DNA of 64,000 nucleotides, from positions 124,001 through 188,000 of the forward strand of contig NZ_JAKSYE010000086.1 in NCBI RefSeq assembly GCF_022829685.1, read 5' to 3'. This document shows positions 37,701 to 58,372 of the stretch, piece by piece. A program made the translations under genes and the position numbers. Each line of letters begins with the position of its first letter. Positions within the stretch are counted from its first letter, which is position 1. Source of the stretch: Methylobacterium sp. E-045 (lineage in GTDB: Bacteria; Pseudomonadota; Alphaproteobacteria; Rhizobiales; Beijerinckiaceae). A model generated the notes under the pieces. That model saw nothing but the letters and a program-made list of their open reading frames with translations, did no database searches and was not told the DNA's origin.

Positions 37701-37884
37701 CGATGACCTGGGGCGCCTGCCCGGGGTACTCGGTGTAGACGATGGTCTGGACGTCCGAGAGGTCCGGGATCGCGTCGAGCGGCAGGGTCCTCAGGGCGTA
37801 GAGCCCGGCTCCCACCGCGAACACGGTCCCGATCAGGACTAACACCAGATTCTTTGCCGACCAGGCGATGAGGCGGGAGATCAT
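34717..37884 (-). CDS. cusA: Copper/silver RND efflux pump CusA
   Basis: The 1055-residue inner-membrane RND transporter reads as CusA: IPDLSDVQTIVYTEYPGQAPQ near residue 40 and the TM4 pattern AVGAMIDAAIVMIEN (about 395-410), which matches the A-x-G-x3-DAA-x3-xEN signature of the Cu/Ag (HME4) branch. It exports Cu(I)/Ag(I) from the periplasm or cytoplasm through CusB and an outer-membrane channel. Its ATG overlaps the cusB stop by 4 nt. No cusC gene is next to it in this window. Confidence 0.94.
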   Translation of the reverse strand: MISRLIAWSAKNLVLVLIGTVFAVGAGLYALRTLPLDAIPDLSDVQTIVYTEYPGQAPQVIEDQVTYPLTTAMLTVPRSKVVRGFSFFGVSFVYVIFEDGTDPYWARSRVLEYLNTVAKRLPAGVTPTLGPDATGVGWVYQYVVVAKERSLAELRSLQDWVVRFGASRAEGVAEVAGVGGFVKQYNVVVDPNRLRAQGITMSKLREAIRSSNADVGGRTVELSEFEFVVRGRGYLKSVADIGSIVLRTEAGTPLRVKDVARVELGPDERRGITEMNGDGEVAGGIILQRFRANALDVIASAKARLAEVAASLPKGTEILPVYDRSHLIEAAIETLKGTLIEESAIVALVCVVFLLHVRSALVAILMLPVGILMAFAGMKALRLGANIMSLGGIAIAVGAMIDAAIVMIENAHKHLERADPGKPRVQVLIEAASEVGPSLFFSLLIITVSFLPIFTLESQEGRLFGPLAFTKTFAMAAAAVLSVTLVPALMVLFVRGRIVPEHRNPVNRLLIWLYRPIIAGVLRARVLTILIALGVLGASVWPALQLGSEFMPDLDEGTLMYMPTTLPGISVTKAGELLGRQDTILKSFPEVLSVYGKAGRANTATDPAPSEMFETIVNLKPKAEWRPGVTLASLKAEMDAALQFPGVSNAWTQPIRARIDMLATGIRTPVGIKVLGTDLAEMEKVARRVEAVVKAVPGTSSAYAERVQGGYFLDITPDREVLGRYGLTVGEVQDVIAMALGGESVTNTVEGRERYTVNVRYPRAFRSSPQSIATEVQVPIAGGGTVPLGEVAKVALTRGPTQIRTENGQLAVFIYVDVTGRDLGGYVAEARAAVAGEVSLPPGTTLQWSGQVEYLDRATARLKIVVPLTLLTVFLLLYLNFRRLTETLIVMLSLPFALVGGVWLMWWLGFNLSVAVAVGFIALAGVAAETGVIMLVYLDHALAEVRTECEREGRPLSRNDLRRAIMVGAVERVRPKMMTVVAIMAGLLPILWSTGSGSEVMQRIAVPMIGGMVSSTVLTLVVIPAVYGLVKGWGLPRSDMRPESVEGHTMPLAAE

Positions 37885-39386
37885 GGCGCCTTCCCCTCGG
37901 CGGCGGCCTGCGGGCCCGGGTCGGGTTTGGGCTCCGAAAGCCCCTGCAGCGCCGCCTTCAGGTTGCTCTCGGCGTCGATCAGGAAGTTGGCCGAGGTCAC
38001 CACGCGGTCGCCCGCGGCGATGCCGTCGCGGACCTCGACGTAGCCGTCGCCGCGGACGCCGAGCCTGACCGGTCGCGGTTCGAAGCGACCCTCGCCCTTG
38101 TCCAGCAGGACGACCTGTTTCGTGCCGGTGTCGATGACCGCGTCGTCGGGCACCGCGACCACCGGCCTGTCGCTGCCGGTGGCGATCGTCACGTCGGCAA
38201 ACATCCCCGGGCGCAGGTCGCCGTTCGGGTTGGGCATTTCGATGCGCAGACGGGCTGTCCGGGTCCCCATGGCGAGGTGCGGGTAGATCCGGGTCACCGC
38301 GCCGGTGAAGACGCGGTCCGGGAACGTCCTGGCGCGCACGGTCGCCATCTGGCCTTCTGCCACGGCCGCCAAGTCGCGTTCGGTCACGTCGGCGAGGACC
38401 CAGACCTTGGAATGGTCGACGAGCTTGAACAGCGTGTCGCCGGACTTGGCGCGCATGCCGTCGGAGACGTTGCGCTCGACCACGACGCCGTCGCGGGGCG
38501 CCGACCAGGTGATGGTCGAGGGCACTTTTCGGGATCGCTCGATCTCGTCGATGACCTCGGGCGGGATGCCGAGGTTCTCCAGGCGCCGGCGGGCGCCCTC
38601 GTAGCCGATGCCGGTGAGGTACTGCGCAGCCGCCGCGTTCATCTCCGGCGAGAACAGGCGCAGGAGCGGCTGGCCCTTGTGCACGTGGTCGCCGGTGGTG
38701 ACGGCCTCGACCTTCTCGATGAATGCGTCGGTGCGCATCGCGATGACCGAGATCCGGCGCTCGTCCTCCTCGATGGCGCCGGGCGCGCGCACCGGCATCG
38801 ACAGGACGCGTCGGTCGACGACCGCCGTCCGGACCCCGGTGCGCTGTAGCTTGCCGGGCGAGATTTTCACGGTGCCGTCCTCGGTGTCCTCCCCCTCGTA
38901 GACGGGGAGGTAGTCCATCCCCATCGAGTCCTTCTTCGGGGTCGGCGAGGTGTCCGGCAGGCCCATCGGGTTGCGGTAGAAGCGCACCTTGCGGGCCCCC
39001 GCAGGCGTGGTGGCCTGACCCATGGCCATGTCGCCGTGCCCGGCGTCGGGCATCGCCTCCGCCTCGTCGGGTTCGTCGAAGCGCACCTCCTCGCTGGCGC
39101 GGACGGCGCGATAGTCGCGACCGTCCGCCGTGCGCCTCGGCTCGGAGGCGTAGTCCGGCTTCCCGTCCGGGTCCTGGTAGAAGACGACCGGTCCCGTCGC
39201 CTTCGCCGCGACCGATGCCTGTATCGGGGATGCCGGCCGGGGCGTGCTCGGCAGCCAGTGGGTGAACCCGGTCCGCGCCTGCTGGACGAGCGCCGGTACG
39301 GGGCTGCCCTCATGCCCCGCGCCATACCCCAGGGCCCCCGCCGCGAGCGCGGCGAGGGTCCCGGCCAGCCATGCCATCCGGCTCAC
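37881..39386 (-). CDS. cusB: Copper/silver efflux periplasmic adaptor CusB
   Basis: The 501-residue membrane-fusion protein has an N-terminal helix, a heavy-metal-binding segment (about 130-165, KVRFYRNPMGLPDTS and KKDSMGMDYLPVY) shared by CusB-type adaptors, a Met/His patch (GHGDMAMGQ) before it, then barrel-sandwich and beta-barrel domains (about 190-430). It couples CusA to an outer-membrane channel and passes metal to the pump. It overlaps the upstream FixH-like gene and the downstream cusA by 4 nt each. Confidence 0.93.
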   Translation of the reverse strand: MSRMAWLAGTLAALAAGALGYGAGHEGSPVPALVQQARTGFTHWLPSTPRPASPIQASVAAKATGPVVFYQDPDGKPDYASEPRRTADGRDYRAVRASEEVRFDEPDEAEAMPDAGHGDMAMGQATTPAGARKVRFYRNPMGLPDTSPTPKKDSMGMDYLPVYEGEDTEDGTVKISPGKLQRTGVRTAVVDRRVLSMPVRAPGAIEEDERRISVIAMRTDAFIEKVEAVTTGDHVHKGQPLLRLFSPEMNAAAAQYLTGIGYEGARRRLENLGIPPEVIDEIERSRKVPSTITWSAPRDGVVVERNVSDGMRAKSGDTLFKLVDHSKVWVLADVTERDLAAVAEGQMATVRARTFPDRVFTGAVTRIYPHLAMGTRTARLRIEMPNPNGDLRPGMFADVTIATGSDRPVVAVPDDAVIDTGTKQVVLLDKGEGRFEPRPVRLGVRGDGYVEVRDGIAAGDRVVTSANFLIDAESNLKAALQGLSEPKPDPGPQAAAEGKAP

Positions 39387-41471: not shown

Positions 41472-42767
41472 CTACCGGGCGCCGAGCACGGGTAGCCAGA
41501 GGGCCAGCGCCGCCAGGGTGACGAGCAGCACGGGCTGGGTGATGACCAGACCCACCCGCATGTACTGACCCCAGGTGATGTGCTGGCCCTTGGTGTCGAG
41601 GACGTGCAGCCAGAGCAGGGTCGCCAGACTCCCGATGGGCGTGAACTTCGGGCCGAGGTCGCAGCCGATGACGTTGGCGTAGACCATGAGCTCGCGCATC
41701 AGCGGCGAGAGATCCGGAGCCTGCTGGATGGAGAGCGCACCCACGAGCACGCTCGGCATGTTGTTCATGACCGAGGACAGGATGGCGGCGGCGAACCCGG
41801 TGCCGATGGTGGCGACGAACGGACCATGGCCCGAGAGCCAGACGAGCCCCTGCGCCAGATAGTCGGTCAGGCCGGCGTTCTTCAGGCCGTAGACCACGAG
41901 GTACATGCCGAGGCTGAAGAGCACGATCTGCCAGGGGGCCCCCGTCAGGACCTTGCGGATGGGAATGACGCGGCTGCGGTTGGCCAGCGCCAGCAAGACC
42001 AGTGCGCCGGCGCAAGTGACCACCGAGACCGGCACGCCGAACGGTGCCGTCACGAAGTAGGCGATCAGCAGCAGCCCGAGGAGCGGGAAGGCCGCCCGGA
42101 AGACCAGCGGGTCCTTGATCGCGTGGCGGGGCGCTTCGAGCTCGGCCACGGGGTACGTGGCCGGAAGGTCGCGCCGGTAGAACAGCCACAGCACCACCAG
42201 GGTCGCGGCCAGCGAGACGAGGTTCACCGGCACCATCACGGCCGCGTATCGGCTGAAGGAGATGTCGAAGAAGTTCGCCGAGACGATGTTGACGAGGTTC
42301 GAGATGACCAACGGCAGGCTGGTCGAGTCCGCGACGAACCCGCAGGCGACGATGAAGGCCAGCGCCGCCGCCGGCTTGAAGTTCAGCCGGAGCAGGATGG
42401 CGAGCACGATGGGGGTGAGCAGCAGTGCCGCGCCGTCGTTGGCGAACACCGCCGCGATCGCGGCCCCCAGCAGGATTACCAGCGGGAACAGCAGCCGTCC
42501 CCGACCCCCACCCCAGCGGGCGATGTGCAGCGCCGCCCAGTGGAAGAAGCCGGCCTCGTCGAGCAGGAGCGAGATGATGATCAGGGCGACGAAGGTGAAG
42601 GTGGCGTCCCAGACGATGTGCCAGACCACCGGGATGTCCCCGGGGTGGATGACCCCGGTGGCGAGCGCGACCGCGGCCCCGATCAGGGCGCTCCATCCGA
42701 TCCCGAACCCCTTCGGCTGCCAGATGACGAAGACGAGGGTGACCACGAAGATGGCGAGGGCGAGCAT
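41472..42767 (-). CDS. arsB: Arsenite efflux transporter ArsB
   Basis: The 431-residue protein has about 12 membrane helices and ArsB signatures: [18 protein letters not shown] (about 108-125), [13 protein letters not shown] (about 310-322) and [22 protein letters not shown]. It exports arsenite (and antimonite) from the cytoplasm using the proton gradient. It lies 36 nt after arsC in the arsRCB operon. Length matches the family (about 429). Confidence 0.95.
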
Positions 42768-42803
42768 CGGGACCGTTTCTTGTTCTTGGTCTTTCAGGGC
42801 GGG

Positions 42804-43229
42804 TCAGGCGGTAGCGACGCGGCGCCCGTGCTCGTCGACGACGCGCTCGCCATCCTCCTTGACGAACTCGCCCTGTTGGGCGGGAAGGAGGTCGAGGACC
42901 GCCTCGGAGGGGCGGCACAGGGCAACACCCAGTGGGGTGACGACCAAGGGGCGGTTCAGCAGGATCGGATGCTCGCCGATGGCATCCAGAAGCTGATCGT
43001 CCGTCAGGCTCGGGTCCGAGAGGCCGAGCTCGCCGAAGGGCGTACCCTTCTCACGGAGCAGATCACGGACCTTCACGCCCGCCCGCTCGGCAAGCTGGCG
43101 CACCAGGGTCCGGTTTGGGGGCGTCTTCAGGTACTCGACCACGTGCGGCTCGATGCCGGCGTTGCGGATGAGGGCTAGGGTATTGCGGGACGTGCCGCAA
43201 TCCGGGTTGTGGTAGATCACGACGTCCAT
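42804..43229 (-). CDS. arsC: Arsenate reductase ArsC (glutaredoxin type)
   Basis: The 141-residue protein has the catalytic motif NPDCGTSRNT with Cys11 and the substrate-binding Args of the glutaredoxin-linked family (including RPLVVTPLG near 92). It reduces arsenate to arsenite for ArsB to export. ATG overlaps the arsR stop by 1 nt. The C-terminus is close to the usual length. Confidence 0.95.
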   Translation of the reverse strand: MDVVIYHNPDCGTSRNTLALIRNAGIEPHVVEYLKTPPNRTLVRQLAERAGVKVRDLLREKGTPFGELGLSDPSLTDDQLLDAIGEHPILLNRPLVVTPLGVALCRPSEAVLDLLPAQQGEFVKEDGERVVDEHGRRVATA

Positions 43230-43576
43230 CAGGCGGTCTCCGTGCAACAGGCGGCGAGGGCAGCGACAGCCGGGGCGCAGACCTCGGGGCGTCCCTGGCA
43301 GCAGTCGCGCATCAGGAACTGGATGAGCTCGGACAGGTCCGGGTAGGCGGCGCTGTAGATGATCGAGCGCCCCTCCCGCCGGGAGGTGACCAGCCCCGAA
43401 TGGCTGAGCTCCTTGAGGTGGAACGACAGGTTGGTGCCGGACACGCCGACCGCCTCGGCCAGCATGCCGGCCGCCATGCCCTCCGGCCCGGCGGTGACGA
43501 GCTGGCGCACGATGCGCAGGCGATGCTCCTGGCCGAGGGCCGCGAAGGCCGCCACGGCTTGCCGTTCGTCCATCAT
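43229..43576 (-). CDS. arsR: Arsenic-responsive repressor ArsR
   Basis: The 115-residue protein has an ArsR winged helix (about 10-85, MLAEAVGVSGTNLSFHLKELSHSGLV) and Cys residues near the C-terminus (RDCC at about 90-93, VC about 100, ACC at about 110), a layout seen in ArsR proteins that bind As(III) at the C-terminal end. It would release the operator on binding arsenite. Divergent from arsH with a dyad operator between. Confidence 0.94.
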   Translation of the reverse strand: MMDERQAVAAFAALGQEHRLRIVRQLVTAGPEGMAAGMLAEAVGVSGTNLSFHLKELSHSGLVTSRREGRSIIYSAAYPDLSELIQFLMRDCCQGRPEVCAPAVAALAACCTETA

Positions 43577-43588
43577 GATGTCAATATC

Positions 43589-43602
43589 TCAACCATCGTT
43601 GA
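43589..43602. promoter_or_regulatory. ArsR operator between arsR and arsH
   Basis: TCAAC-CATC-GTTGA is a perfect 5+5 dyad in the 47-nt gap between the divergent arsR and arsH starts. Similar inverted repeats are bound by ArsR-family repressors. Confidence 0.75.
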
Positions 43603-43623
43603 AACGTAGAGGAACGAAACGTC

Positions 43624-44376
43624 TTGGACAAGCCCCTGCAGCCCTTCGCCGATGGAATGCCGAACCTGAGCGAGGGGCATTTCGTGGTCCCGACGACCGA
43701 CGCCCTGCACGTGAAGACACCGTTCACCCACGCCCCGCGCTTCCTGATCCTGTACGGATCGCTCCGTGAGCGCTCGTTCAGCCGCCTCCTCGCCTACGAG
43801 GCCGCGCGCCTGTTGGAGGCGATGGGCGGCGAGGTGCGGATCTACGACGCGCACGGCCTGCCGCTGCCCGACGACGCCACGGCCGATCACCCGAAGGTCC
43901 AGGAACTCCGAAACCTCTCGATCTGGTCGGAGGGCCACGTCTGGGTCAGCCCCGAGCGACACGGCGCCATGACCGGGGTCATCAAGAGCCAGATCGACTG
44001 GCTGCCGCTCTCGGAGGGTTCGGTGCGCCCGACGCAGGGGCGGACGCTCGCCGTGATGCAGGTCTCCGGCGGCTCGCAGTCGTTCAACGCGGTCAACAGC
44101 CTCCGCGTGCTCGGTCGCTGGATGCGGATGATCACCATCCCGAACCAGTCCTCGGTCCCGATGGCGTACAAGGAGTTCGACGACGCCGGCCGGATGAAGC
44201 CGGGTCCGCTCTACGACCGGGTGGTCGATGTCTGCGAGGAGCTGATGAAGTTCACGCTCCTCACGCGCGAGCGATCCGACTACCTCGTCGACCGGTATTC
44301 GGAACGCAAGGAGCGCGAGCCCGAAAGGCTCAAGGCCGTCGCCGTCGACATCGGGTTCGTGAAGCGACCCTCCTGA
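43624..44376 (+). CDS. arsH: Organoarsenical oxidase / NADPH-dependent FMN reductase ArsH
   Basis: The 250-residue flavoprotein has the ArsH patterns [25 protein letters not shown] (about 40-65) and [21 protein letters not shown] (about 115-135) for FMN binding. ArsH uses NADPH and FMN to oxidise trivalent organoarsenicals and confers resistance to them. The start is TTG with GAGGA upstream. It is divergent from arsRCB and shares the operator. Confidence 0.94.
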
Positions 44377-45847: not shown

Positions 45848-47086
45848 TCACCCGATTATCGTTGAGGGAGAACGGGTTACAGCGCCGAGAACGCCCGTCA
45901 GGATTTCGTCCATCTTGGCCTCCATCCACGGGCCCTTGGAGGCCGGTACGATGAAGCTATCGTGGACGGGCAGGCAGGGGATGGACGCCTTCTCGCAGGC
46001 CTTGAGGACATCCACCGCCATGGCGCTGTCTACGGCCATGCAGCGGATCCCACGGTCTGCAGCGATGTCTGCGGCGATGGGGGTGTTCCGCGCCACGACG
46101 GCCTTGAGCAGGCCGCGGGTGTAGTCCCAGCCGTGCTCCCAGTCGTCCTTGTCCATAATGGCCGCCGCTGCCGCGTTCATGGTCTTCGCGTTCAAGGCGA
46201 CGTTGAGGGCGAGCTTGCCCTCGTCACGGGGGAATGTTCCCGTGACGTAGGGATCGTGGCGCAAGACGTGACCACGGGCTGCGTAGAGGATCCGCGGATG
46301 GAGGGTGGCGAAGTCCGGCTCGAAGGCCGCCTCGCCGTTGATGAGGAGCTCCCGGCGGCGTCCCTTGGGGAGGTTCTGCCACCATCCGTAGAGCCGGCCG
46401 TGGCGGTCCCAACGGCCACGGCCGAACACGCGGTAAACCTCGGGGCTCGGGGTCGGGACGACGCTGGCCCACGTCCCCTTCTCCTTGCGGTCGTTGCGGG
46501 CCCGGACAACGCGCGTGGCGTGCTCCCACCCGTCGCCCGTCGGCATCGTGACCGAGACGTTGCCGAGGTAGGCATTGATGCGGTCGAGCTCGGCCTCCAG
46601 GCGTCGCGTCTGACGTGTCGGGTCGTAGCCGATGACGTCGCCGGCCTCGTCCTTGAGGATGAGGCGGCAGCGGCGCGTCTCGTACTCGAAGGGCGCGTCG
46701 CGGAAGGCGTGGACGAGGTCGGGGGTCGCACGCAGGCGGCTCTGCATCCCGGTGGAGAGGTGGTCGCCAGGGCGGGCCCGGACCTCCTCGATCAGCCCGA
46801 GCTCGACGAGTTCAGCCACGGCGGCGAGCACGCGGTCGTAGGTGTAGGGCAGGCCCATGTACCGCGATTGACCGGCGTAGAACGCCTTGCGGCGCGAGTA
46901 GCTGACCCAGCGATCCTCGCCGGGCGCCATGTCGGCCGCGATGCACGCGGCCGCGAGGACGCTGCGCCTGGCGACGTCCTGCCTGCGATCGGGGATGTCG
47001 GGGATGCCGGCGGCCGAGAGGATGTTCTCCGGGATGCGCCAGTGGAAATCGAGGGCGCGGTCGCGCGCCTGTGCCGTGTTGAGCAT
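45848..47086 (-). CDS. Protein with polymerase-palm-like motifs (family A / single-subunit type)
   Basis: The 412-residue protein has no family I can name, but its C-terminal half shows three spaced motifs. EPDFATLHPRILYA (about 273-286) resembles motif A of family A polymerases (D-Y-S-x-x-E/H-x-R). RDEGKLALNVALNA (about 303-316) resembles motif B (R-x3-K-x3-N). LPVHDSFIVPA (about 378-388) resembles motif C (HDE/HDS). The N-terminal half (about 1-200) looks like a winged-helix-rich region, and YGWWQNLPKGRRRELLING lies just before motif A. A palindromic operator lies 12 nt upstream of the start. It is in the prophage-like region. I infer a small nucleic-acid polymerase or a relative; this is untested. 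Confidence 0.55.
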   Translation of the reverse strand: MLNTAQARDRALDFHWRIPENILSAAGIPDIPDRRQDVARRSVLAAACIAADMAPGEDRWVSYSRRKAFYAGQSRYMGLPYTYDRVLAAVAELVELGLIEEVRARPGDHLSTGMQSRLRATPDLVHAFRDAPFEYETRRCRLILKDEAGDVIGYDPTRQTRRLEAELDRINAYLGNVSVTMPTGDGWEHATRVVRARNDRKEKGTWASVVPTPSPEVYRVFGRGRWDRHGRLYGWWQNLPKGRRRELLINGEAAFEPDFATLHPRILYAARGHVLRHDPYVTGTFPRDEGKLALNVALNAKTMNAAAAAIMDKDDWEHGWDYTRGLLKAVVARNTPIAADIAADRGIRCMAVDSAMAVDVLKACEKASIPCLPVHDSFIVPASKGPWMEAKMDEILTGVLGAVTRSPSTIIG

Positions 47087-47941: not shown

Positions 47942-48152
47942 CGGTCTGCACCGTGTAGTCGGGCGTGCCTGAGAAGCTGATGCCCAAGCCGGCGTAAAAC
48001 CCCATCACGGAGTGGAGCGCGCTCAGGGACGACTTCCTCATCTCGACGGCGACCATGGTCCTCTGGGACAGGCCGACGCGTCGGGAAATTTCGTCCTGCG
48101 TCAGGCCGACGAGGGTCCGCGCGGCGCGCAGCTGCATTGGGGAGGGATACAC
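47889..48152 (-). CDS. XRE-family helix-turn-helix protein
   Basis: The 87-residue protein has a Cro/CI-type HTH: QLRAARTLVGLTQDEISRRVGLSQRTMVAVE (about 7-37) is the full motif. The C-terminus has no recognisable domain. It is divergent from the gene at 48357 and is a plausible phage-type repressor of the antirepressor operon. Confidence 0.8.
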   Translation of the reverse strand: MYPSPMQLRAARTLVGLTQDEISRRVGLSQRTMVAVEMRKSSLSALHSVMGFYAGLGISFSGTPDYTVQTVTYTQATPPDVPPIPDT

Positions 48153-48356
48153 GACGAGGCACTCCGAGCCGGATTCGATGGAAGGCCATTATCACCAAAG
48201 CGCCCGAAACGTGCAATGACGGCACATCGACTCGCGTTCTCAGAAGAAGGTGATATCCTCCGATTCGTGCCGACATCGCCGGATCCACTGGCGAAAAAAA
48301 TGGCCCCGGAAGCGCGCGAACGCCGCCGAGGCCTGGTCAGCCACAGGAGCATCCCC

Positions 48357-48989
48357 GTGACCGAACCGTGCACCCACCTTACCACCACGACCGCCCCGAA
48401 CGGTAGCCTCGCCGCGTCCCTCGCCCAGGGAATTTCGCAGTACGCCGAGCGCTTCGAGGAGGCCTCGGTCCTTGAGATCGCGGCGGCCATGAGCGTCGAG
48501 GATCCCCACGCGGCGCGGTCGTTCCTCCTGGAGCGCACTGCCGAGCCGGCGTTCCCGATGCTGCGCAGGAGCGTCCTCGGTACGATCGAGCTCCGGATCG
48601 AGGCCGCCAAAGCCGCTGCGCGTGACCGCCTCCTCCTGGTGACCGGCGACGACGCGCCGGGCGGGAAGAACGACAAGGCGCGCGAGGCGATCTTCCGCCG
48701 GGACCCGGGCGCATTTCTGCCGGGCGCCGAGGTCAGCAAAGTCCGCCCGTTCGCCCGGGCCTTCTGGCACGTCCTGATCGACGGGAAGGACGTGCCCTGC
48801 GTCTACGTCTGCCGGGCCGCCGTCGTGAGCGACCTGCACGACATGGTCGAATGCCTGGCCGGGAACAGACAGTACGAGCGGGGCATCGTCATCGGTGCGC
48901 CCGAGACCGCACGGGACATCGCCGGCCTACTGCCCCCGAACATCGCCTTCGTGGCCGTACCCCTCGCCACCGACGGGAGGCGCGCGTGA
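48357..48989 (+). CDS. Uncharacterised prophage protein upstream of the antirepressor
   Basis: The 210-residue frame starts at GTG with AGGAG 7 nt upstream. It has a helical N-terminal half (SLAASLAQGISQYAERFEEASVLEIAAAMS) and a C-terminal part with RPFARAFWHVLIDGKDVPCVYVC. I do not recognise a family. Its stop overlaps the GTG of the BRO gene (GTGA), so the two are translated together. A longer frame with an ATG at 48216 is possible but lacks a ribosome site. Confidence 0.65.
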   Translation: MTEPCTHLTTTTAPNGSLAASLAQGISQYAERFEEASVLEIAAAMSVEDPHAARSFLLERTAEPAFPMLRRSVLGTIELRIEAAKAAARDRLLLVTGDDAPGGKNDKAREAIFRRDPGAFLPGAEVSKVRPFARAFWHVLIDGKDVPCVYVCRAAVVSDLHDMVECLAGNRQYERGIVIGAPETARDIAGLLPPNIAFVAVPLATDGRRA

Positions 48990-49852
48990 ACGCCATCGTC
49001 CGCATCCCGGCCGCGCCGGCGATCTCGATCTTCCGCTTCGACAACCACGACATCCGCGTCGTGGAGATCGACGGGCAGCCCTGGTTCGTCGGCGCCGACG
49101 TCTGCAAGGCCGCCCGCCTCTCGAACCCGTCCGTCTCGCTCAAGGCGCTCGACGAGGACGAGAGGGCTAAGATCTTCTTAGGGCATCCCCAGGGCGAGGT
49201 CCTGGTCATCACCGAGGGCGGTCTCTACACCCTGCTGATGCGCAGCCAGCGTGCCCTCGTGAAGGGCGCGACGGCATGGCGGTTCCGTCGGTGGGCGATG
49301 AACGAGGTCCTCCCCGAGATCCGGCGGACCGGTTCCTACGCCGTGGCACCCGCCCCGACGCCGGTCGCGATCCCCGAGGACCTCGACGAGAACAGGGTGC
49401 TGAGGAGGATGCTCCTGGCCCGGATGGATCGGGAGGACGCCCTCGTCGAGCGCCTCGTCATCACAGACCAGGAGCTCATCGACACCTCTCGCCAGCTCAC
49501 CGCCTCGCAGCGGCAGGTACAGCGGGCCCTGCCGGCGGTGGAGTGCGTCGAGCGGTTCACCGAGAGCGAGGATCTCTACAGCCTCCAGGCCGGTGGCAAG
49601 GCCCTCGGGCAAAAGCCGAACAAGTTCATCGCTTGGCTGAAGGAGCGCGGCGACCTGTTGGATCTGAACAGGTCGAACCTCCCCCGGCAGGACCTCATCG
49701 ACCGTGCCCCGTTCCGCGTCCGGATCGAGGAGTACGGCGGCAAGCCCCGTGCGACGCCAAAGATGACGTCGAAGGGCATCCTCCACTACGGACGCGAGCT
49801 CTGCGTCTCCGTCGACTGGCGGGCCGCACGGGAGCCCGACCTGTTCGACTGA
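48986..49852 (+). CDS. Phage antirepressor with BRO-N and KilA-C-like domains
   Basis: The 288-residue protein has an N-terminal BRO domain (about 12-115: FDNHDIRVVEIDGQPWFVGADVC, then SLKALDEDERAKIF, TEGGLYTLLMRSQ, and WRFRRWAMNEVLPEIRRTGSY) and a C-terminal ANT/KilA-C-like domain (about 165-285: LPAVECVERFTESEDLYSLQ, LGQKPNKFIAWLKERGDL). These are phage antirepressors that switch off a repressor. It is the last gene of a two-gene operon with a strong terminator behind. Confidence 0.9.
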   Translation: MNAIVRIPAAPAISIFRFDNHDIRVVEIDGQPWFVGADVCKAARLSNPSVSLKALDEDERAKIFLGHPQGEVLVITEGGLYTLLMRSQRALVKGATAWRFRRWAMNEVLPEIRRTGSYAVAPAPTPVAIPEDLDENRVLRRMLLARMDREDALVERLVITDQELIDTSRQLTASQRQVQRALPAVECVERFTESEDLYSLQAGGKALGQKPNKFIAWLKERGDLLDLNRSNLPRQDLIDRAPFRVRIEEYGGKPRATPKMTSKGILHYGRELCVSVDWRAAREPDLFD

Positions 49853-50438: not shown

Positions 50439-51230
50439 TCAGATCTCCAGGACTAGGGACGGGTCGAAGGCGGGGTTCTCGCCCCGGCGGCCGCGCGGGT
50501 TCGCGAGGATGCGGGTCCCACCGATCCGGTAGTCGGCGGACCGGTGGATGTGCCCGTGGATCCAGAGATCCGGGGCGTGCTCCCCTTCGAGGACGCGGCT
50601 GCAGTCCGAGGCGTACGCGGCATCGATCGCCTGCAACGGACCCTGCCTGCCCAGCGACGCGGGATGCGGCGCATGGTGCGTGACGACGACGGTCGGGCCC
50701 GCGTGCGGCTCGGCTAGGGCGCGCTCGATCCGGCCGAGCTGGGCAACGTGCGCGGCCGCGGCCATCGGTGGCCGGAAAGCGTTCGTCTCGCCCGACGGGA
50801 GCCGCGTCCGGATCTGCCGATGATCCCGCATTCCGCCGACGCGGTCCCCGCACGTTGACTGCGCCAACACGCGGAACGGTTCGCCGAGGAGCTCATAGTC
50901 CGTCCAGAGCGTGGCCCCGACGAACCGCACGCCCTCGATGTCGAGGGTCTCCCCGACGGCGAGGATGTGAATGCCGGCGGCGGCCGCGGCCTCGCGCCCG
51001 CGTTCGAGTTCGCTCTGCCACCTCGACGCGTAGAAGTCGTGGTTCCCGGGGACGTAGATGACGCGCCGCACGAAGGGCACGACGCACGCCGCGAGCCAGG
51101 GGATGGACCTCCGCGTCAGGCCGTCGGCGACGTCGCCGGCGATGATCGCCACGTCGCACGGCGGGACGGCCGGGCCCTCCCAGCAGTCGGCGTCGTCGTG
51201 CACGTCACTGAAAATCCAGGCTCTCAGCAT
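50439..51230 (-). CDS. Calcineurin-like metallophosphoesterase
   Basis: The 263-residue protein has the metal-binding motifs in order: SDVHDD (about 8-13), GDVADG (about 33-38), PGNHDFY (about 61-67), VTHHAP (about 182-187) and HGHIHRS (about 222-228). These mark a two-metal phosphoesterase that could act on nucleotides, phosphoproteins or nucleic acid ends. It overlaps the gene upstream by 26 nt. Prophages often encode such enzymes; the substrate is unknown. Confidence 0.9.
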   Translation of the reverse strand: MLRAWIFSDVHDDADCWEGPAVPPCDVAIIAGDVADGLTRRSIPWLAACVVPFVRRVIYVPGNHDFYASRWQSELERGREAAAAAGIHILAVGETLDIEGVRFVGATLWTDYELLGEPFRVLAQSTCGDRVGGMRDHRQIRTRLPSGETNAFRPPMAAAAHVAQLGRIERALAEPHAGPTVVVTHHAPHPASLGRQGPLQAIDAAYASDCSRVLEGEHAPDLWIHGHIHRSADYRIGGTRILANPRGRRGENPAFDPSLVLEI

Positions 51231-51570
51231 CCCACCCTCCCACGCACCACGCCGACCCGTCGGCCTCGAACCACACCTGCGCCGCCCGGGTGACCAGGAG
51301 GCCGTTCGTCCTAAATCCGGGACACCAGAGCCCGTACCGAAGCCGCTGCGCCGAGGGCGGCCGGTCCCCCTCGGCCACCGTGCCGGTCGCCCACGCGTGG
51401 ACGTCCCGGGCCCCCGTCCGGAGGCACCGCAGCCTGCCCGCCTCCGACGCCCGGAGGACGACGTCGGCAAGCACGATCGCCGGCACGTGGCCGACGACCC
51501 GGCCGCCGACGCGCACGGACCAGAGCCGGCGCGTCAGGTTGCGGTAGACGTCACTTCTTCCCGGCGGCAT
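51205..51570 (-). CDS. Phage-type hypothetical protein, 121 residues
   Basis: The frame reads SDVYRNLTRRLWSVRVGGRVVGH..., then LRTGARDVHAWATGTV and LRYGLWCPGFRTNG. It has mixed beta/alpha content, no signal peptide and no catalytic motif I can identify. It overlaps the gene before it by 20 nt and the gene after by 26 nt, so it is coupled within the operon. Related proteins of similar length seem familiar from phage genomes, but I cannot name a family. Confidence 0.65.
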   Translation of the reverse strand: MPPGRSDVYRNLTRRLWSVRVGGRVVGHVPAIVLADVVLRASEAGRLRCLRTGARDVHAWATGTVAEGDRPPSAQRLRYGLWCPGFRTNGLLVTRAAQVWFEADGSAWCVGGWDAESLDFQ

Positions 51571-52474: not shown

Positions 52475-54154
52475 TCAGTGGCGACGGGCGAGGGTCTCGC
52501 GGCCGTCGAGAAGCGTCGTCACGGCGCGGCGGAGCGGGCGCAGGCTGCCCCCCTTCCACACGCGCGCCAGCAGATGCAGCTCGTCGCCGTCGAGGTCGGG
52601 GAGCCAGCCGGCGTCGAGGCCACGCTCGTCGCGGAGCTCGGCGACGAGGTTGGCCGCCGCGACGGGCAGGTCCTCGGCCTTGGGAAGGCCGACGTGCACG
52701 ACGCGGAAGCGGTCCAGGAGGGGGCCGGGGACGGCTCCCGTCCCGTTGGCCGTCGCCAGGAACTGGGTGCCGCTCAGATCGGCGTTCGTTTCCAGATAGA
52801 CCTCGTGGAAGGCGCGGCTCCCTACCGGCTCCAGCAGGGCGATCAGGGAGTCCGTGAGGCGCCCGTTCTCCGACCTCGTACCCGCCTTCTCGATCTCGTC
52901 GATGATGATTACGGGGTTGGCGACGCGGAGCCGCTGGATCGTCTGCAACGGGACGCTTGCGCGCCCCGTGCTCCACTGGCGCGAGGTTCCTCCGAACGCG
53001 GCGTCGGCGACGCCGGCGGCGTTGTAGAGGACGCACGGGATCCCGGCCGCCTCGCAGAACACCTGCAGGTAGCTCGTCTTCCCACTGCCCGGCGGCGACA
53101 CCGCGAGAGTGTTCCGCAGCCGGGCTACACCCCCGTTGGCGAGGTCCCGCAGCAGCAGCGCGGTGAGGTCCGTGAACCACGGGAACCGCGCGTCGAGCAG
53201 CTTGCCGACGGCCACGACATCGACGCCATGGACGAGCGGCAGGGCCTCCCCGGCGAGCGTGTTGAACTCCGCGCGCGGCGTGGACCCCCGCGACGTCCGC
53301 GATGAGCCCGTGGTCTCGGAACCGGGTAGGTGGTCCAAGGCCCCCTTGGCTAGGACGACGAGCGTCGGGGTGGCGCGCGCCGCCCGGTCCCTCCAGCCTC
53401 CGTCGCCGAGGGGCCAGTCCAGCTGCGCCAGCGCGGCGAGGCCGTCCGCCTGCGCGTCGACCCAGTCCTTGGCGGTGCCGCCGGCGCCACCGCGGGCGAG
53501 GTCCTCCTCGATGCCGATCTGCCGGTGCGCCGCCGCGATGATCGCGAGCGTCTCGGCGAATCGGGCCACGTGGTTGTCGTACGGCGCCAGGCTGCTGGCC
53601 AGGTCCTCGGAAACGTACCCCGCCTCGTCCAGCTCCTCCGTGGCATCGCCGCAGTATCGAAGGGCGTTCCGCAGGGCGAGCCAAGCGGCGGCGTGATGCC
53701 CGTTGGAGGCCGACGCCAGCGCCAGGCGCAAGCAGATCGAGCTGCAGCACGCCGCCGCCTTGGCGGACCCCAGCGCCGCCTGTGCGAAAAGCAGGTCATC
53801 CGCCAGCAGCGCCGCGGCGTTCCGGCCCGCGTCCGACGTGGTCTCCGCGTTGGCGTGCCCGCGCAGCGCCGCCTCCACCTTCTGCAGGGAGGCGATGCTG
53901 ACGTCCCGCCGGGTCTGCCCGAGCTGCCGGACTAGCGCGGCCGGGAGCCGGGGCTCCTCGCCGAGGAACCGGGCGAGAGCCAGGCCGGCGTCGACGCGGG
54001 CGTCGTACCGCACGTGCTCGCCGCCGAACGCCTTCGCACGCGGCCCGATGGGAGCCTCGGGCTGGCGGGGCCCCGTCAGGGCGGTGGAGTCGAGGAGCGT
54101 GGCACGGGCGGCCTGGACGGCAGCGGCGCGCGCCCGAGAGGCGTCGTCGGTCAT
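52475..54154 (-). CDS. AAA+ ATPase with large N-terminal helical domain
   Basis: The 559-residue protein has an N-terminal helical region of about 330 residues with no known domain, then an AAA+ module: Walker A SPPGSGKTS (about 350-358), Walker B VIIIDEIEK (about 413-421), a sensor-1-like FLATANGTG (about 462), and a C-terminal lid. The module resembles Lon/McrB-type AAA proteins but there is no protease domain. It heads the minus-strand operon, with a promoter just upstream. It may unfold or remodel a phage or host target; a role in anti-phage defence is also possible. Confidence 0.8.
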   Translation of the reverse strand: MTDDASRARAAAVQAARATLLDSTALTGPRQPEAPIGPRAKAFGGEHVRYDARVDAGLALARFLGEEPRLPAALVRQLGQTRRDVSIASLQKVEAALRGHANAETTSDAGRNAAALLADDLLFAQAALGSAKAAACCSSICLRLALASASNGHHAAAWLALRNALRYCGDATEELDEAGYVSEDLASSLAPYDNHVARFAETLAIIAAAHRQIGIEEDLARGGAGGTAKDWVDAQADGLAALAQLDWPLGDGGWRDRAARATPTLVVLAKGALDHLPGSETTGSSRTSRGSTPRAEFNTLAGEALPLVHGVDVVAVGKLLDARFPWFTDLTALLLRDLANGGVARLRNTLAVSPPGSGKTSYLQVFCEAAGIPCVLYNAAGVADAAFGGTSRQWSTGRASVPLQTIQRLRVANPVIIIDEIEKAGTRSENGRLTDSLIALLEPVGSRAFHEVYLETNADLSGTQFLATANGTGAVPGPLLDRFRVVHVGLPKAEDLPVAAANLVAELRDERGLDAGWLPDLDGDELHLLARVWKGGSLRPLRRAVTTLLDGRETLARRH

Positions 54155-54271
54155 GGGGATCTCGCTGGAACGGGAGTGCACGCGGGGCGCGCCGAGCAGG
54201 GCTCAGGCGGTCAGGCAGGGCATCCGTTTCGAGCGAGGGCAGATCATCGACGTCATCTCCGGTGTGACGCC

Positions 54272-58254: not shown

Positions 58255-58297
58255 CTGCTAACGCGCTGTAATCGCGTCCAAATCTGTCCGAGTGAAT

Positions 58298-58372
58298 TGG
58301 AGCGGGCGAAGGGATTCGAACCCTCGACCCCAACCTTGGCAAGGTTGTGCTCTACCCCTGAGCTACACCCGC
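58298..58372 (-). tRNA. tRNA-Gly (anticodon GCC)
   Basis: The minus strand folds as a tRNA: acceptor stem GCGGGTG with CGCCCGC, D-arm with AGCTCAGGGGTAGAGC, anticodon loop CTTGCCAAG (GCC at 58340-58338), T-arm GAGGGTTCGAATCCCTT, discriminator T and encoded CCA (58300-58298). All arms pair. The 3' end faces the prophage-like region, the common side for integrase attachment. Confidence 0.97.

Follow-up and report, generated by a model that had tools for sequence, protein, structure and literature searches.

The 412-residue protein P0001 is, in both fold and family, very probably a TV-Pol family polymerase of known kind, as judged from its sequence and its predicted structure. Its gene, in the 64,000-nucleotide stretch of DNA analysed here (the window), lies on a 78-kb island at a tRNA-Gly gene. 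We propose, with a probability of roughly 55%, that P0001 acts as a primase-polymerase of a mobile element, that it primes and synthesises DNA, and that it helps to replicate the island.

Identification of the open reading frame and its active-site motifs

A first-pass annotation, made from the sequence alone, had pointed to a 412-residue reading frame in which palm-like motifs occur in order. Translation recovered this frame exactly and placed it on the minus strand (Table 1), with a third-position GC of 0.89. The same annotation held the family to be unknown, which is true of Pfam but not of PHROGs, where phrog_4756 (function unknown) matches residues 218-401 (E 1.8e-29). Searches of Pfam, NCBIfam and PADLOC with P0001 returned no matches, and in Pfam neither PF00476 (DNA polymerase I) nor PF00940 (T7-like RNA polymerase) was reached at E <= 10; PDB sequences searched with P0001, or with the profile of our family alignment A2, gave no relevant match. 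As PF00940 is also matched by just 2 of 59 family members, weakly (best E 0.16), we rejected the identification of P0001 as a genuine Pol I or a genuine T7 RNA polymerase. Profile A2 aligned by hhalign with Pol I is a weak match with motif A in register (probability 9.6%, P 0.0034), and motif C was aligned with that of one T7-like RNA polymerase (probability 7.3%). The phrog_4756 profile also picks up one true DNA Pol I (L025, E 2e-4), which is 50% identical to the PF00476 protein of P0001's own genome.

All residue counts given here are from A2, an alignment of 59 sequences with P0001 included. From A2 on, the set excludes L030, a near-duplicate of L015, along with copies that were repeated or short; from A3 it also excludes L007, which stops at a TGA in frame, the short L069 and three further rows. 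The motifs of P0001 read D258-F-A-T-L-H-P-R-I-L (A), R287-x3-K291-x3-N295 (B) and V374-H-D-S-F (C), and their conservation argues against a chance arrangement: D258 is invariant (59/59), D376 is found in 56 of 57 non-gap rows (one Asn; two further rows have gaps), and R287 and K291 are each kept in 56/59. The Arg and Lys of the R-x3-K-x3-N pattern first suggested for motif B hold. Its Asn is corrected here: the commoner one is N299, eight residues past the Lys (K+8; 33/59), and not N295 (20/59). Conservation extends to H375 of motif C (53/59), to the fingers residues D278 and Y280, and to G230 (58/59) and R231 (56/59) in a beta hairpin before the palm. By alignment, G230, R231, D258, D278, Y280, R287, K291 and D376 are residues of the family A polymerase core. 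Outside this set, N171, R219, F221 and R244 are likewise near-invariant.

A few rows depart from this pattern. Three (L021, L023 and L024, from small genomes of one family) keep both Asp, have Cys in place of K291 and are without the His of motif C, and their sequences suggest a possibly different or lost activity; a fourth, L040, has Asn instead of D376. These variants argue against a single function shared by all members. They also count in favour of an inactive palm, with the protein serving only in DNA binding or as a structural component. For P0001 we consider this extremely improbable, as D258, R287, K291, H375 and D376 are kept in it and in nearly all other rows.

Table 1. Coordinates of the polymerase gene, its motifs and surrounding features in the window.
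Feature	Position in window	Strand	Basis or remark
Predicted TV-Pol / divPolA2-type polymerase ORF (P0001, 412 aa)	45848..47086	-	translation; phrog_4756 E 1.8e-29; conservation; model
Motif C VHDSF, residues 374-378, putative catalytic D376	45953..45967	-	alignment
Fingers motif B, residues 287-299, R287-x3-K291 and N299	46190..46228	-	alignment
D278 and Y280 of fingers	46247..46255	-	kept in 54/59 and 55/59
Motif A, residues 256-267, putative catalytic D258, H263 at D+5	46286..46321	-	alignment
Beta hairpin before palm, residues 218-233, G230 and R231	46388..46435	-	alignment, model
N-terminal domain, residues 20-127, predicted winged helix	46706..47029	-	model; fold matches, best Z 6.6
Bro-N and KilAC (ANT) antirepressor-like gene	48989..49852	+	matched near 6/19 other genus loci
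Calcineurin-like metallophosphoesterase	50439..51398	-	matched near 3/19 other genus loci
Phage L5 gp82-like protein (PF25735)	51205..51570	-	matched near 5/19 other genus loci
AAA ATPase, weakly clamp-loader-like	52475..54181	-	matched near 6/19 other genus loci
52-bp direct repeat (att), right copy	58293..58344 (C96:182293-182344)		left copy G000:C96:104120-104171, outside window
tRNA-Gly (gcc), integration site	58298..58372	-	3' end lies in the 52-bp repeat

Predicted fold

The AlphaFold model of P0001, computed with 54 rows, has a pLDDT of 90.8 and a pTM of 0.88. This model, together with the conservation of the two Asp, supports a palm of the kind seen in Pol I and T7 RNA polymerase. The first-pass annotation had made the same proposal and would have dropped it for a predicted structure without a palm fold or for Asp residues not conserved among homologues; the model has the fold and both residues are conserved. 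Structural matches found with VIA-align to Pol I and to T7 and mitochondrial RNA polymerases fall within residues 137-412, and the Z scores for apPol (5dkt; Z 10.8, 4.2 A, 229 aligned), T7 RNA polymerase (1h38; Z 10.2, 4.3 A, 244 aligned) and yeast mitochondrial RNA polymerase (8ap1; Z 10.0, 3.9 A, 253 aligned) are all tied. Foldseek against the PDB placed a Bacillus DNA polymerase I fragment first (E 2.2e-4) and a Taq polymerase I fragment next (E 9.7e-4). Against viral models it matched phage proteins over nearly the whole length of P0001 (best E 9.3e-21); the 'DNA polymerase' of Rheinheimera phage Barba31A matches at E 1.4e-17. In the model, strands 218-221 and 229-233 form the hairpin that carries R231.

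Residues 1-140 likely form a winged helix, as predicted by modelling. Modelled alone, they have a pLDDT of 88.4, and the matches listed for them are mostly winged-helix proteins, as judged by title, with a modest best Z of 6.6. ORC chains (Z 6.3) and 4pt7, titled 'Structure of initiator' (Z 5.2), are matched as well; all matches listed for residues 1-140 lie below Z 8, where, by the tool's own note, the score may reflect merely a common arrangement. Foldseek with these residues returned no match at E <= 0.001, and the N-terminal-domain profile A4 had transcription factor DP-2 (E 0.038) as its sole match among PDB sequences and did not match Pol I. The initial observation that there is no exonuclease domain is supported by these mostly winged-helix matches and by the empty Pfam, NCBIfam and PADLOC searches.

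Choice between DNA and RNA synthesis

Two positions of the active site may bear on the sugar of the incoming nucleotide. The residue at K+8 of motif B is Tyr766 in Pol I and Tyr639 in T7 RNA polymerase, and five residues past the motif A Asp (D+5) T7 RNA polymerase has Gly. In A2, D+5 is His in 29 rows, Phe in 15, Asn in 4, Gly in 3, Tyr in 3, Met in 2, and Gln, Leu or Ser in 1 each, with His, Phe or Tyr in 47/59; in P0001 it is H263. Asn stands at K+8 in 28/29 rows with His at D+5 versus 5/30 other rows. After clustering at 60% identity, which is the only correction for kinship and leaves kinship partly in place, 26 of 27 His clusters have Asn at K+8. Corrected mutual information ranks the pair near the top, and D353 scores higher with position 263. 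In Pol I, the D+5 residue Glu710 excludes ribonucleotides (PMC9324360, in excerpt). We propose, from this co-variation, that H263 and N299 may be a contacting, sugar-selecting pair that favours dNTPs.

It is conceivable that P0001 is instead an RNA polymerase of the single-subunit type, which would transcribe or use NTPs for priming in the manner of T7 RNA polymerase. The tied fold scores would fit this, as would the weak PF00940 matches of two family members, and the excerpted text of PMC11348598 raises the same idea for divPolA2, a group of phage proteins discussed below. We judge it unlikely, since the Gly at D+5 is found in just 3/59 members and P0001 has His, since P0001 itself has no PF00940 match, and since 412 residues are too few to accommodate an RNA polymerase N-terminal domain.

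Relatives in bacteria, plasmids and phages

Relatives of P0001 are scattered among bacterial genomes. Counting its own genome each time, searches with P0001 found a member in 19/41 genomes of the genus and 14/199 of the family, the phrog_4756 profile matched in 24/289 genomes of the class (a count that takes in the true Pol I L025 and L026, which matches weakly and contains a stop), and profile A1 matched in 25/398 genomes of the phylum. A second, distant TV-Pol is present in the same genome as P0001 (L002, G000:C10:102560-103876; 30% identity) and falls in another clade of the tree; a serine resolvase lies ~5 kb upstream of it.

Beyond the chromosomes, tblastn at E <= 0.01 matched 14 phage records (Vibrio, Aeromonas, Shewanella and Pseudaeromonas phages, one phage being present twice) and 3 plasmid records. 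The Paracoccus plasmid L034 has, ~4 kb away from the complete gene, an ORF that matches the N-terminal part only; in another Paracoccus plasmid, the match to L009 is confined to query residues 4-219. Scanning of viral_contigs with P0001 and L008 gave no relative, and L035 against viral_contigs and L010 against genome_contigs recovered the query's own sequence alone. In a tree of 60 rows, phage rows stand at several positions among bacterial ones, and the deep forks and the long phage rows are without resolution.

The phage members connect P0001 to proteins that received the name divPolA2 in 2024, from Caudoviricetes phages (PMC11348598, in excerpt). The divPolA2 example AUR84708 was found in a one-sequence search by a profile from which the two phage rows had been left out (E 2.1e-40, positions 31-428 of 456), and its record also matches profile A1 (E 1.4e-39). 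By sequence, P0001 is homologous to phage divPolA2 proteins along nearly its whole length. Phage KASIA has a P0001-family gene, and its annotation also lists a Pol I, a primase, a helicase and an RNA polymerase, so the family enzyme is probably not the replicase there.

The tRNA-Gly island and its genes

The suspicion that the gene belongs to a mobile element is supported by the structure of the locus. The 3' end of the tRNA-Gly falls within a 52-bp direct repeat, and the two copies (Table 1) delimit a unit of ~78.2 kb, so that the part of the window left of the right copy lies inside the unit. An integrase is encoded ~3 kb inside the left repeat (phrog_1, E 2.7e-30; PF00589, E 2.6e-6, just over the cut-off). 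In two related genomes, G869 and G843, the regions homologous to the left and right flanks have 50 and 52 bp in common, which is the empty site. G871 carries the right part of the island (97.9% identity over 19 kb, ~1.3 kb of flank included) and its left end (99.9% over 18 kb), whereas its chromosome past the tRNA is only 69-72% identical; P0001 is itself ~100% identical in G871 and G861, two other species. Together these identities indicate that the island has moved between species. Another genome, G283, has a different stretch of ~11.7 kb (L144 5312-17121) between two copies of the tRNA-Gly repeat, and the site thus takes up more than one element. We also considered the island as a conjugative element and found this unsupported, as the relaxase PF03432 and the coupling protein PF02534, the two families searched, match contig C122 of this genome only.

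Directly left of the polymerase region and inside the island is an arsenic resistance cluster (window 41472-44376) that encodes ArsB, ArsC, an ArsR-like HTH protein and an FMN reductase that resembles ArsH. A CusB/HlyD-type membrane fusion protein (window 37881-39386) raises the possibility of metal efflux genes on the island as well.

The mixture of phage-like and arsenic resistance genes on the island would also suit a polymerase that makes nucleic acid as a defence against phages, comparable to defence-associated reverse transcriptases. Polymerases of other families do act in defence. Against this stand the absence of any PADLOC hit and the relatives in 14 phage records, and we regard a defence role as very unlikely.

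On the other side of the polymerase are several genes with recognizable domains (Table 1). The AAA ATPase matches PF00004, phrog_15585 (unknown) and, at a weak level, a clamp loader; no helicase was found among the chosen neighbours scanned with Pfam and PHROGs. Between the polymerase and the Bro-N gene is a 325-aa ORF (window 48012-48989) with no Pfam or PHROGs match, and, besides near-identical copies, a match to it was seen at 1 of 19 genus loci (L148).

Across 27 loci, a serine resolvase cluster is present in 11, a tyrosine integrase cluster in 10 and a second integrase cluster in 4; seven cluster representatives compared with Pfam comprised 3 resolvases, 3 phage integrases and 1 with DUF6538 only. 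The window enters this set as its 36-64 kb slice and falls in none of the resolvase or integrase clusters. The setting bears on a further possibility, that P0001 is an accessory DNA polymerase, used to repair DNA, fill gaps or assist recombination, which phages and islands carry as cargo and not as a replication primase. Such a role would agree with the separate replication enzymes annotated in KASIA, with the presence of a family member in fewer than half of the genus genomes (19/41), and with repair as one role suggested for divPolA2 in the excerpted PMC11348598. The resolvases and integrases near the loci argue against it, as they are what PMC2579912 describes for the TV-Pols of mobile elements, and we consider the accessory role rather unlikely.

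Proposed function

In our preferred reading, the primase-polymerase, a predicted winged helix at the N-terminus is followed by a minimal polymerase domain of the Pol I / T7 RNA polymerase class, which consists of palm, fingers, hairpin and a reduced thumb and has no nucleases. D258 and D376 would hold two metal ions and, with R287 and K291 of the fingers, nucleotides would be added on a DNA template; template-directed synthesis is likely, as predicted from the anatomy of the active site. The winged helix may place the enzyme on the DNA of the element, either at an origin or on a single-stranded template. On excision of the 78-kb island, or of an element nested within it, the enzyme would start short DNA strands there and extend them. 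We infer in this way catalysis, use of dNTPs, priming and a role in island replication. Against this reading count the lack of a helicase among the chosen neighbours scanned, the dependence of CcPol (see below) on a partner for priming, the replication enzymes annotated in KASIA, the modest winged-helix match and the weak profile comparison with Pol I.

The TV-Pols were predicted to be primase-polymerases in 2008 (PMC2579912). The CcPol polymerase, filed at that time under TV-Pol, primes DNA synthesis in vitro as CcPol-MP, and only with its partner MP (PMC7581432, in excerpt); to the knowledge of Bebel et al. in 2020, no TV-Pol besides CcPol had been characterised biochemically (excerpt of PMC7581432). 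P0001 is small, keeps every catalytic position, is ~100% identical in three species and belongs to an island with defined ends, and these properties make the 2008 prediction directly testable.

It is tempting to go further and imagine a one-polypeptide initiator, in which the winged helix recognises the island origin and the polymerase domain starts DNA without a primer or a single-strand-binding partner. We offer this as a tentative and rather doubtful extension. If it were true, a single 412-aa protein would do the jobs of CcPol, MP and an initiator together, and the same type of enzyme would be common to bacterial islands and to large phages that already have a replisome. Independently of it, the analysis joins two separately named families, TV-Pol and divPolA2, and proposes a candidate sugar-selecting pair in H263 and N299.

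Comparison with known polymerases

P0001 shares with DNA polymerase I (PF00476) the fold, the order of motifs A, B and C and the two catalytic Asp; it differs in having no Pfam match and no nucleases, and in having His for the Pol I Glu at D+5 and Ser for the Pol I Glu after the motif C Asp. With CcPol-MP and PolA-SSB it has in common a family A palm and residence on a mobile element, and CcPol too is without a complete nuclease domain; however, CcPol retains part of a 3'-5' exonuclease domain and depends for priming on a partner with an OB fold, whereas the N-terminus of P0001 is a predicted winged helix (PMC7581432 and PMC10061031, both in excerpt).

The likeness to divPolA2 comprises the palm, an N-terminal domain without assignment and the lack of an exonuclease, and the difference is one of setting, as divPolA2 occurs in phages beside a regular polymerase and P0001 on a bacterial island (excerpt of PMC11348598). 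The excerpted text of that paper draws no link between divPolA2 and TV-Pol, the latter term appearing once, in its background, and the portion of the jumbo-phage paper PMC7824862 available makes no mention of TV-Pol.

The suggestion in the first-pass annotation that this might be a new polymerase is not supported, as the same core is found in the TV-Pol family described in 2008 (PMC2579912) and the same phage proteins are divPolA2 (PMC11348598, in excerpt). The Microcystis phage Ma-LMM01, named in 2008 as a TV-Pol carrier, gave no match as a whole record to profile A1. With filters off, its gp030, a gene not named in PMC2579912, is the top ORF for A2 over 150 of 162 kb (weak E 0.0044); it has D-x4-H, K-x7-N and QHD in order but lacks the Arg of RxxxK, and it adjoins two transposase genes. 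Two points set P0001 apart from the 2008 account: the N-terminal domain was predicted there to be all-helical, whereas the model of P0001 is a winged helix with strands, and the D5-like helicase linked to another TV-Pol subset is absent among the P0001 neighbours scanned (PMC2579912).

The 2008 description gave four core features (PMC2579912), three of which we find in the P0001 family: a palm with two conserved catalytic Asp (D258, D376), a beta hairpin before the palm with a conserved Arg (R231), and fingers with a conserved Asp (D278) and RxxxK (R287, K291). For the fourth, a thumb of two antiparallel coiled-coil helices, the model shows one long helix before the hairpin (158-174) and no clear second. 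A fused nuclease domain is lacking in both. A subset of TV-Pols also has an extra N-terminal domain that is found alone as well, and lies near resolvases, integrases and Bro-N/KilA-C genes (PMC2579912); P0001 likewise has such a domain, standing alone near the gene in relatives, and is accompanied here by a Bro-N/KilAC gene and the island integrase, with resolvases and integrases near its relatives.
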